Shown here piece after piece: positions 37,588 through 39,290 of a stretch of DNA of 64,000 nucleotides. How positions within the stretch are numbered: the stretch's first letter is position 1; the number at the start of each line of letters is the position of its first letter. The translations under genes and the position numbers were made by a program. This DNA is from Marinomonas aquiplantarum (lineage in GTDB: Bacteria > Pseudomonadota > Gammaproteobacteria > Pseudomonadales > Marinomonadaceae): contig NZ_QNRF01000003.1 of NCBI RefSeq assembly GCF_003314975.1, positions 372,001-436,000 of the forward strand, given 5' to 3'. The notes beneath the pieces were generated by a model that was not told the DNA's origin, searched no databases, and saw only the letters and a list, made by a program, of their open reading frames with translations.

Positions 37588-37613
37588 AAAGTGTCTACTT
37601 TTATAGACACTTT
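37588..37613. other. stem-loop overlapping the sodX stop codon
   Basis: Perfect 10-bp inverted repeat AAAGTGTCTA / TAGACACTTT whose right arm overlaps the sodX TAA. A clear T-run is lacking on the minus strand, so termination would be weak. Confidence 0.55.
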
Positions 37614-37911
37614 ATTGAGGTTTCCTTTGAGAAGCGCAAATACGACCAATCACCTTCCCCATGACACGCCTTGGTGATACCCAACCAATCCGCTCAGACT
37701 GGAGACTTTTATTATTTTCACCACCAAGCCATAGCTGTCCATCCGGTGCAATATGCAATATTTTTTTAACGATATAACCATATAAAGCATGGTCAACCAC
37801 AACGAGTTGGCCAATTTTGAGCTTACGATACCAACGACTAATAAAGACAAAATCGCCATCGTGAAGATTGGGCGCCATGCTTTCCCCTTGAACTTTAATA
37901 AAGCGCAACAT
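37612..37911 (-). CDS. sodX: nickel-type superoxide dismutase maturation protease
   Basis: 99 residues, a minimal S26-type signal-peptidase-like protease. The catalytic Ser is in KVQGESMAPNL and the catalytic Lys in YGYIVKKI. SodX removes the N-terminal extension of SodN so that its first His can bind nickel. The ATG at 37911 has AAGGAG five bases upstream; a second ATG at 37914 is directly before it. It lies 86 bp after sodN, behind a strong hairpin, so it should be made in smaller amounts. Confidence 0.9.
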   Translation of the reverse strand: MLRFIKVQGESMAPNLHDGDFVFISRWYRKLKIGQLVVVDHALYGYIVKKILHIAPDGQLWLGGENNKSLQSERIGWVSPRRVMGKVIGRICASQRKPQ

Positions 37912-37950
37912 CATCCCTCCTTCATCAATAGATAATACGGCTGAAACAAA

Positions 37951-37983
37951 ACATCAGGAAAGGACGTTGACCTTTCCTGATGT
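37951..37983 (-). terminator. strong hairpin between sodN and sodX, likely partial terminator
   Basis: Perfect 13-bp stem ACATCAGGAAAGG / CCTTTCCTGATGT with a 7-base loop. On the minus strand it is followed by TTTGTTT. It lies 14 bp after the sodN stop and before sodX, so it probably attenuates the operon, keeping the protease low relative to the enzyme. Confidence 0.85.
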
Positions 37984-37997
37984 TCATAAAAACCAAT

Positions 37998-38501
37998 CTA
38001 ACCCTTCAGATCAGGGTAGACAGTGTCCAACATAGGAGGATAAGGACAAGGTGCTCTGTAAGTTGTGACCCCCTTCGTTAACCAAAAGGCTTCAGCAAAT
38101 TCATTCACTAATGACACCAGCTTTTCACCTTCTTCACGGTTGATGCCTTGCTTACATTTTGACGCTTGCAGCATAATGCTGTGCGTCAGATCATGCGCAT
38201 TAGGCACTTGTTCGAATTGAGGTGCTTTGAAGTAATCTCCCCAAATAATACGAACGGCTTCTTTTACCTCTGTGCTCGCCGACTCTTTTTCACCTACTAA
38301 GCGGGCGATCTGAGCATAATCAGCAACCGTTAATGTCTCTTTGTCTTCGATTTCTTTAATTAAATCCATCAAGCGAACACAGCTTAAAGCCGCCAATAGA
38401 GCGGTTGAAGGATCGTAAATTTTGCATGGAATATCACAGTGAGCTTGAGCGGTTTTAAAACCAATCACCTTGTCTAACACTTTCACCATATTATGCATCA
38501 T
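37998..38501 (-). CDS. sodN: nickel superoxide dismutase
   Basis: 167-residue precursor. The nickel hook HCDIPCKIYDP is at residues 21-31: His21 becomes the mature N-terminus, with Cys22 and Cys26 as thiolate ligands, after removal of a 20-residue propeptide ending TAQA. It dismutates superoxide. The rest is helical, with LTHSIMLQASKCKQGI typical of the family. AGGAGG lies nine bases before the ATG. The gene overlaps the small His-rich gene by 11 bp. Maturation needs the SodX protease encoded next. Confidence 0.95.
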   Translation of the reverse strand: MMHNMVKVLDKVIGFKTAQAHCDIPCKIYDPSTALLAALSCVRLMDLIKEIEDKETLTVADYAQIARLVGEKESASTEVKEAVRIIWGDYFKAPQFEQVPNAHDLTHSIMLQASKCKQGINREEGEKLVSLVNEFAEAFWLTKGVTTYRAPCPYPPMLDTVYPDLKG

Positions 38502-38712
38502 GGTTTTTATCCTCCTGCTTAGAACCTTTACGACGTAGTACTTGCTTATAAATTAAGCCGCCTACGATCACACTGGCAATGGCTAGCCAAGTTAACATAT
38601 GAATCAACTCACTAGACCAATGAGCATGGTCGTGACCTGGGTGTGCTAATACCATTGAACTCATTAGAGCCAAACAGAGACTAGCAACGAGTGATGTAAC
38701 AGCAGATTTCAT
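38491..38712 (-). CDS. small His-rich membrane protein of the NiSOD operon
   Basis: 73 residues. A signal peptide ends near MVLA, leaving a mature N-terminus HPGHDHAHW with four His in nine residues. One transmembrane helix (MLTWLAIASVIVGGLIY) follows, then a short basic cytoplasmic tail. The His cluster faces the periplasm and could bind nickel or another metal, recalling the HPGH start of HupE/UreJ proteins. It lies directly upstream of, and overlaps, sodN. A role in nickel handling is inferred. ATG follows AAGGATAAATAT. Confidence 0.75.
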   Translation of the reverse strand: MKSAVTSLVASLCLALMSSMVLAHPGHDHAHWSSELIHMLTWLAIASVIVGGLIYKQVLRRKGSKQEDKNHDA

Positions 38713-38741
38713 ATATTTATCCTTATCAATTTAAAGCGAAT

Positions 38742-39185
38742 TTAATGGCGCACCATAGTGGCCTGACTGGTAACAACATTTGTAATAGAACGCATCAGCG
38801 CTTTACTTTGAGCCATAACATGTTTGCTATGACTCTGTGAGAACAACTCCCATTCAAAACGAATGTGAGTTGCTGTTCTCATAATCAAGCCACGTTGGTC
38901 TTCATCCATATCAGGACGCACAATGACTGCCTGTAAAAAGTTCACAGCGCTTTCGTATTGTGTGTTTGCGGAAAGGAAATCACCTAAAGCAGTATAAGAC
39001 TCGGCGATATTGAGAAAACTGACTGCTGCTGCGGCAACAACAGACTCAGCATCTTGATGAAAATCATCATCAAAAGACTGCTCGACCTGCTGAAGCGCTT
39101 GTTGATTAAGCTCAATAGAGTCTGAGTAATCATGGTTTGAGTAAGCTTTATTGGCTTGTCTTGTTAAACGTTCCCAGTTTTGCAT
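38742..39185 (-). CDS. TPR-like protein heading the NiSOD operon
   Basis: 147 residues from the ATG at 39185 (GGAGGAAACG upstream). It is predicted all-helical: two TPR-like pairs, ANKAYSNHDYSDSIELNQQAL and SFLNIAESYTALGDFLSANTQYE in parts, and a His-containing tail. It resembles uncharacterised DUF2753-type proteins known from vibrios (from memory). It has no signal peptide, so it is cytoplasmic. It is the first gene after the Fur boxes and sits 29 bp before the His-rich gene. Function unknown; a protein-interaction role in nickel or sodN maturation is possible. Confidence 0.75.
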   Translation of the reverse strand: MQNWERLTRQANKAYSNHDYSDSIELNQQALQQVEQSFDDDFHQDAESVVAAAAVSFLNIAESYTALGDFLSANTQYESAVNFLQAVIVRPDMDEDQRGLIMRTATHIRFEWELFSQSHSKHVMAQSKALMRSITNVVTSQATMVRH

Positions 39186-39221
39186 CGTTTCCTCCGCGAC
39201 CAAGTAGGTCAATCATTAAGA

Positions 39222-39240
39222 TCTAATGAGAATCATTATC
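39222..39240 (-). promoter_or_regulatory. Fur box upstream of the NiSOD operon
   Basis: The 19-bp site matches the Fur consensus at 16 of 19 positions; its core is AATGAGAATCATTATC. It lies 37-55 bp upstream of the first ATG of the operon, where Fur would block RNA polymerase when iron is plentiful. Confidence 0.82.
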
Positions 39241-39271
39241 GTAAACAAAACAGAATAAATCCAGTTATTTT

Positions 39272-39290
39272 GAGAATAAATCTCATTATT
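39272..39290 (-). promoter_or_regulatory. second, weaker Fur-box-like site
   Basis: Matches the Fur consensus at 14 of 19 positions and contains a TGAGA-N5-TCTCA inverted repeat. It lies about 31 bp beyond the first site, consistent with tandem binding. Confidence 0.5.

Follow-up and report, generated by a model that had tools for sequence, protein, structure and literature searches.

A nickel superoxide dismutase operon in Marinomonas

The window, by which we mean the whole 64-kb stretch of Marinomonas aquiplantarum DNA that was analysed, carries four genes on its minus strand in the order TPR, EXP, sodN and sodX, flanked by a cobO-type gene and a YitT-type gene. The first encodes a 147-residue protein with an all-helical TPR fold and a C-terminal His (38742-39185); the second, here called EXP, a 73-residue protein with a signal peptide, one transmembrane (TM) helix and a Lys/Arg tail (38491-38712); the third the precursor of a nickel superoxide dismutase (NiSOD; 37998-38501), whose gene overlaps EXP by 11 bases; and the last a maturation protease of the S24/S26 type, in which Ser12 and Lys50 are present (37612-37914). 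These are the four genes named in the initial annotation of this DNA, and all of them are present. Our survey of the genus covers 48 Marinomonas genomes, 22 with sodN and 26 without, and the four genes stand in this order in every one of the 22 that have sodN (tblastn, E <=0.002). The operon is real; its control by iron is a prediction from the promoter.

The identity of the enzyme, first read from its HCDIPC hook, is borne out by its family matches. SodN scores 149.2 bits against Pfam Sod_Ni (E 1.1e-43, cut-off 25) and 146.7 bits against TIGR02753 (cut-off 90), it matches a solved NiSOD at E 2.3e-14, and its nickel hook lies in the stretch AHCDIPC, directly after a 20-residue leader (codons 38442-38501, minus strand). 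By family and hook SodN is a NiSOD, with nickel content and SOD activity predicted, and it is 98% identical to the SodN of Marinomonas sp. TW1. The match to the solved enzyme ends at residue 143, beyond which there is a conserved C-terminal extension with the consensus CPYPPxxxVVYPKL (about residues 144-167; 37998-38070). In this family, SodX cuts the 20-residue leader from pre-SodN and so frees His1 of the nickel hook. The call of sodX from its Ser/Lys pair holds as well: S12 and K50 are in place, the gene adjoins sodN in 22/22 sodN-bearing Marinomonas genomes, and TIGR02754 is its best NCBIfam match (E 3.5e-17), at 62.7 bits just below the cut-off of 63.25. Leader length is 20 in 71 of the best 80 of 475 SodN loci, a count that is biased because the script takes the start nearest 20, and that we do not use as evidence. 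The idea of the leader as a strongly amphipathic helix was dropped, since the moment did not exceed that of shuffles at 0.05 for 9 of 12 leaders.

Between sodN and sodX lies a perfect inverted repeat with 12-base arms (37952-37982), which is absent from the terminator list for the window and could tune the level of SodX. By eye, the sodN-sodX gap of one relative (G398) holds an inverted repeat of another sequence. A known RNA upstream was rejected as a candidate, no Rfam family reaching the gathering threshold between 36000 and 41000.

Upstream of the TPR gene, the initial annotation had placed two Fur boxes, and one of them stands out. The match at 39222-39240 agrees with GATAATGATAATCATTATC at 16 of 19 positions and is the sole Fur match with <=3 mismatches in the 64-kb window, where 0.01 would be expected. 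The second, a 14/19 match at 39272-39290, is present and is weak on its own because matches of exactly 14 occur 8 times, counted strand-wise, in the same 64 kb. The main box is conserved across the genus. For 39 of 41 loci (from 40 genomes, G388 having two loci), sodN-less genomes included, the best match within the 250 bases upstream of TPR is 14-17/19 and starts between -35 and -69; the exceptions are G372 (13/19) and G381 (12/19). Upstream of five other genes, taken as a control, the best match was <=14/19. The conserved promoter box of a Fur regulon member is present, and Fur is predicted to bind at 39222-39240.

The genome's other SOD carries the stretch NNAAQIWNHTFFW, which we take to be an FeSOD signature. 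An Fe/Mn-type SOD is present in 47 of the 48 Marinomonas genomes, and the exception (G401) has sodN. An MnSOD replacing NiSOD was considered and set aside, since a second Fe/Mn-type SOD occurs in just 3 of the 26 sodN-less genomes (G373, G397 and G402, which form one sodN-less clade) and in the sodN-bearing G392. By eye, this second SOD adjoins a ZIP-like metal transporter gene in all four (L214-L217). Fur control and an iron-sparing switch, both proposed at the outset, are therefore supported as predictions, given the conserved box and the FeSOD-type second enzyme. The switch itself is already known and is not new here: Alteromonas macleodii has more NiSOD when iron is limiting (PMC7190382), and a 2024 paper terms NiSOD a non-iron replacement (PMC11069385). 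In Streptomyces, too, a Fur-family regulator flips between Fe and Ni enzymes (sodF and sodN), although there the signal is nickel and the regulator Nur (PMC7055735), whereas the Marinomonas box is of the iron-Fur type.

Two upstream genes with different histories

The initial annotation assigned both upstream genes to nickel capture or SodN maturation and suggested a survey of sodN neighbourhoods. We examined the best 80 of 475 SodN loci (the named loci), a sample skewed towards SodN like that of the window. In this sample, TPR is found upstream of sodN in 50/80 loci, EXP, by profile, in 54/80, and both in 40/80; for the 64 loci outside Marinomonas the counts are 34 for TPR, 40 for EXP, 26 for both and 16 for neither. 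Both genes are also present in 22/22 sodN-bearing Marinomonas genomes, so that they are common beside sodN. A search of open-licence papers brought up no account of either gene next to sodN. In Psychromonas (L036, L042, L044 and L045), TPR and EXP accompany a SodN that is 80-86% identical to that of Marinomonas, and horizontal transfer of the three genes is likely.

Common neighbourhood is what favours the reading in which both genes are dedicated factors of SodN maturation or nickel capture. We nonetheless consider that reading quite improbable in its full form, because of the way TPR behaves where the enzyme is gone. An orthologue of TPR persists in 14 sodN-less Marinomonas genomes, flanked in 13 by the cobO and yitT genes, and more diverged copies lie between the same two genes in four others (G372, G375, G378 and G381). 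Two distant genomes without sodN (G256 and G352) have TPR as well, in a scan that was capped at 10 or 20 first-look candidates for each genome and whose matches are lower bounds. Three pairs of sister genomes have a deletion of sodN in common (G369/G380, G373/G402 and G411/G412; hereafter the post-loss pairs), and their dN/dS values for TPR are 0.05, 0.02 and 0.16. Among the named loci (best 80 of 475), the presence of TPR tracks that of the Fur box, the non-Marinomonas loci with both TPR and a strong Fur match numbering 13, of which four are closely related Psychromonas. We therefore rejected TPR as a nickel-specific factor, and the part of the initial proposal that concerned it is unsupported. 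Because it outlasts sodN and goes with the Fur box, TPR reads as a gene of iron starvation and not as a dedicated nickel helper.

A comparable arrangement is the Pseudomonas fagA-fumC-orfX-sodA operon, which is described as an operon of iron starvation (PMC3377617). In three of our loci (L051, L061 and L074), the order is a small ORF, a fumC-type gene (Pfam-checked in L061), TPR, sodN and sodX. The likeness is one of gene order, and the Pseudomonas operon encodes an MnSOD where these encode a NiSOD.

EXP and its histidine motif

EXP is a 73-residue exported protein whose mature end is HPGHDHAHW, just as first described: cleavage is predicted after ...VLA, the codons of the His motif, whose residues are predicted metal ligands, occupy 38617-38643 on the minus strand, and the motif is followed by one hydrophobic stretch and the Lys/Arg tail. 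Across 37 aligned EXP sequences, one residue of the mature protein, H15, never varies, and H1, G3, H4, D5, H6 and S11 are conserved at >=90%, figures to be read knowing that most rows were found through a motif-based seed and that the alignment leans towards the motif.

EXP is not universally needed beside sodN, because at eight named loci outside Marinomonas sodN is accompanied by TPR alone, and at 16 of the 64 by neither upstream gene (best 80 of 475). By profile, EXP was not found in the nine Synechococcus, delta- and alphaproteobacterial loci of the same 80. The counts may be lower bounds, however, since four loci (L004, L006, L007 and L098) have ORFs at the EXP position that fall outside the motif. 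When EXP was sought elsewhere in ten genomes with an EXP-less sodN locus, matches appeared in 4/10, all of them in open frames of 164-191 residues. Across 288 genomes of the class, scanned within the same limit of first-look candidates and giving lower bounds, the strong matches beyond the source genome adjoin sodN (G139, G157 and G268), and small or middling matches occur in G009, G056, G099 and G128. A single uncultured Pseudomonadales MAG (L086:3824-4498) has an apparent in-frame fusion of EXP and SodN, in which the EXP tail is followed by the SodX cleavage site, as expected if the tail is cytosolic.

What is EXP related to? Its profile matches that of DUF6732 with a probability of 97.2 (7 rows) and that of HupE with a probability of 95.8 (just 3 HupE rows). 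At E <=0.05, 14 of the 37 EXP members match DUF6732 (best 1.6e-5) and 3 of the 37 match PF04955, HupE/UreJ (best 0.011). EXP and HupE/UreJ share a signal peptide, a mature N-terminus that reads AHPGH and, behind a conserved His, a TM helix; they differ in that EXP has 73 residues against about 200, one TM helix where the full domain has several, and no HPxxGxDH. The profile also gives weak matches to frames of ~200 residues in the genus, two of which, from the source genome, are HupE/UreJ by Pfam. EXP itself is too short to be a HupE permease, and we rejected that identity. The likeness is a short stretch (signal peptide, AHPGH and one TM helix), and convergence could account for it.

DUF6732 (PF20506) proteins are similarly small, with a signal peptide, AHxGH, further His residues and one TM helix. 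Their source genomes, however, are more remote, though within the same phylum, and they stand beside a cbiX-like gene; the window EXP, at 13.1 bits, falls below the Pfam cut-off of 27. In 7/7 loci (L187-L193; 299 genomes), the next gene downstream of DUF6732 is a cbiX-like one for a cobaltochelatase, followed in the one Pfam-checked case by a cbiC-type gene, and this position suggests a cobalt role for the family. Among the 288 class genomes, weaker small EXP-like ORFs come directly after the NiFe-hydrogenase large subunit in two cases and after hypE in one. Small one-TM proteins with an AHxG mature N-terminus thus recur beside nickel and cobalt genes. The cyanobacterial sodT-sodN-sodX cluster offers a further parallel, with a hook-bearing SodN, a SodX protease and a nickel-related membrane gene beside sodN. 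There, SodT is described as a UreH-type transporter with six TM helices (PMC4284471), whereas EXP spans the membrane once, behind a signal peptide, and the Marinomonas operon has TPR and the Fur box in addition. At 73 residues and one helix, EXP was rejected as a SodT/UreH transporter.

Further evidence on EXP comes from the loss of its partner. Of 22 sodN-bearing Marinomonas genomes, 20 retain the His motif, against 1 of the 11 sodN-less genomes that have an EXP ORF, three of the 14 sodN-less loci having no full one (Fisher 7e-6, kinship ignored; the pattern permits R for H4, as in G386, and D or G for H6, as in G385, G392 and G399). The correspondence has exceptions on both sides. G407 has lost sodN and kept the motif, and the sisters G374 and G393 have sodN and lack it. 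Because the sodN-less G379 clusters with these sisters on the tree, decay of the motif may have preceded loss of sodN in that group. Over the gene as a whole, we found no clear relaxation of selection: dN/dS in the three post-loss pairs is 0.41, 0.28 and 0.32, within the 0.10-0.72 of sodN-bearing pairs. Since the motif is mostly kept with sodN and mostly lost without it, EXP probably serves SodN.

It is rather doubtful that EXP is chiefly a membrane anchor or scaffold, with its TM helix and YKQ-RRRK tail tethering SodX or pre-SodN and the His motif secondary, although several observations lean that way. By eye, the TM helix and tail (GGFVYKQ..RRRK) are still recognisable in sodN-less genomes that lack the motif, and a Trp near position 9 is kept in 8 of the 11 sodN-less genomes with an EXP ORF; the listed SodX ORFs have no TM helix by hydropathy; and in the L086 fusion SodN sits behind the EXP tail. 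Against it, no part of the 37-row alignment is better conserved than the His residues, with the seed bias noted above, and the extreme end of the tail overlaps the start of sodN. We favour nickel handling, for which EXP is a good candidate: it is kept beside sodN, most sodN-less genomes have lost its motif, and it resembles HupE and the small proteins that neighbour nickel and cobalt genes. For EXP, then, the role in nickel supply or SodN maturation proposed at the outset stands as a candidate, while for TPR it does not.

The leader and SodX in genomes without the enzyme

Of the 26 sodN-less Marinomonas genomes, 10 have kept sodX. In 10/10 of these, a mini-ORF between TPR/EXP and sodX starts with the SodN leader and ends past the cleavage site, and in two of them, the sisters G373 and G402, the first hook codon has given way to a stop, which leaves an ORF that is exactly the 20-residue leader. 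The mini-ORF is found in 0/9 fetched TPR loci without sodX, a set that includes G388B (from a genome with sodN elsewhere) and leaves out the sodN-less G382 (C1) and G389 (C2). The Fisher table of leader by sodX used 10/10 against 0/4, with kinship ignored; 0/9 comes from the later scan. The leader-bearing genomes form five groups (G369/G380/G400; G373/G402/G397; G407; G394; G411/G412) on a tree of 37 tips, built from five neighbour proteins and midpoint-rooted, that has some very weak nodes (0.003, 0.051 and 0.465), and the tails behind the leader vary between the groups. In G397 (L171), a short tandem repeat lies between the mini-ORF and sodX.

Both parts of the pair are under purifying selection after loss of the enzyme. 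Six sodN-less pairs were run, of which the three post-loss pairs share a deletion; dS is near or past saturation in several. In the post-loss pairs (order as above), dN/dS of SodX is 0.08, 0.03 and 0.05, against 0.01-0.07 in sodN-bearing pairs, and that of the leader is 0.19, 0.11 and 0.09, against 0-0.12. SodX is as constrained as it is with the enzyme, and the leader somewhat less. The three further pairs, which have no clear shared loss, give leader values of 0.06, 0.04 and 0.45, the last from G394/G373. Pooled over the three post-loss pairs, 12.75 changes fall on the leader's 145 non-synonymous sites and 16.25 on its 35 synonymous sites (pN/pS 0.19; Fisher 2e-6, kinship ignored). Orphan SodX proteins keep the Lys in 10/10 and the Ser in 9/10, G394 having Asn for Ser12.

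These data bear on two other explanations, in one of which the leader, SodX and TPR of sodN-less genomes are slowly decaying remnants. Some genomes have gone further and lost EXP, leader and SodX (G370 nearly, and G415), the G394 SodX has lost its Ser, and constraint on the leader is weaker than with the enzyme. Yet the shared-deletion pairs are far diverged (SodX dS 0.91, 0.90 and 0.67) and SodX has kept its low dN/dS, the pooled leader ratio is low as well, and the Fur box is still present in these genomes, so that we regard simple decay as unlikely. In the other, the leader ORF has been retained because sodX relies on it as an RNA or translation-coupling element, and not for its peptide. 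Its position fits, overlapping the EXP stop and sitting just before sodX, as does its absence from the nine TPR loci without sodX. Its synonymous sites have changed freely, however, and its non-synonymous sites have been held, which makes this, too, an improbable account. From the co-retention of the two and the purifying selection in the three post-loss pairs, we conclude that leader and SodX probably have a role independent of NiSOD. More tentatively, the 20-residue leader may be a working peptide that forms with SodX, and perhaps with TPR, whose fold resembles those of peptide-binding TPR proteins, a Fur-controlled peptide-protease module apart from NiSOD. We hold this to be possible without yet preferring it; it would explain why, in several Marinomonas lineages, the enzyme was deleted and the leader ORF and protease were kept under selection.

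The working of the operon, nickel delivery to SodN included, can be proposed to run as follows. Consider a cell running short of iron. Fur would leave the promoter, and NiSOD would be made in place of the iron SOD, as the box and the two enzymes suggest. Pre-SodN would be cytosolic, and SodX, as in the rest of the family, would remove the leader there to expose His1 of the hook. EXP would sit in the inner membrane, N-terminus out and basic tail in, and its outward HPGHDHxHW could bind Ni(II) and hand it on, alone or via a HupE/UreJ-type permease, to the maturing SodN. TPR would ride in the operon as a more general iron-starvation adaptor, and the leader and SodX would have a second function that outlives the enzyme, the step for which co-retention and purifying selection are at hand. 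We lean slightly towards this model as a whole, that is, a Fur-repressed iron-starvation operon with nickel handling by EXP, a general TPR protein and a leader/SodX pair with a second function.

In this context, EXP is a concrete and widely conserved candidate for nickel delivery that comes with an evolutionary test, its motif being mostly kept with the enzyme and mostly lost without it, and it has a theme in common with the small proteins encoded next to hydrogenase, hypE and cobaltochelatase genes. The retention of leader and SodX by selection after loss of the enzyme is the newest point here and goes beyond what the initial annotation had claimed. The orphan pair suggests a second, selected function; if that is true, it would change the view of metalloenzyme leader peptides.
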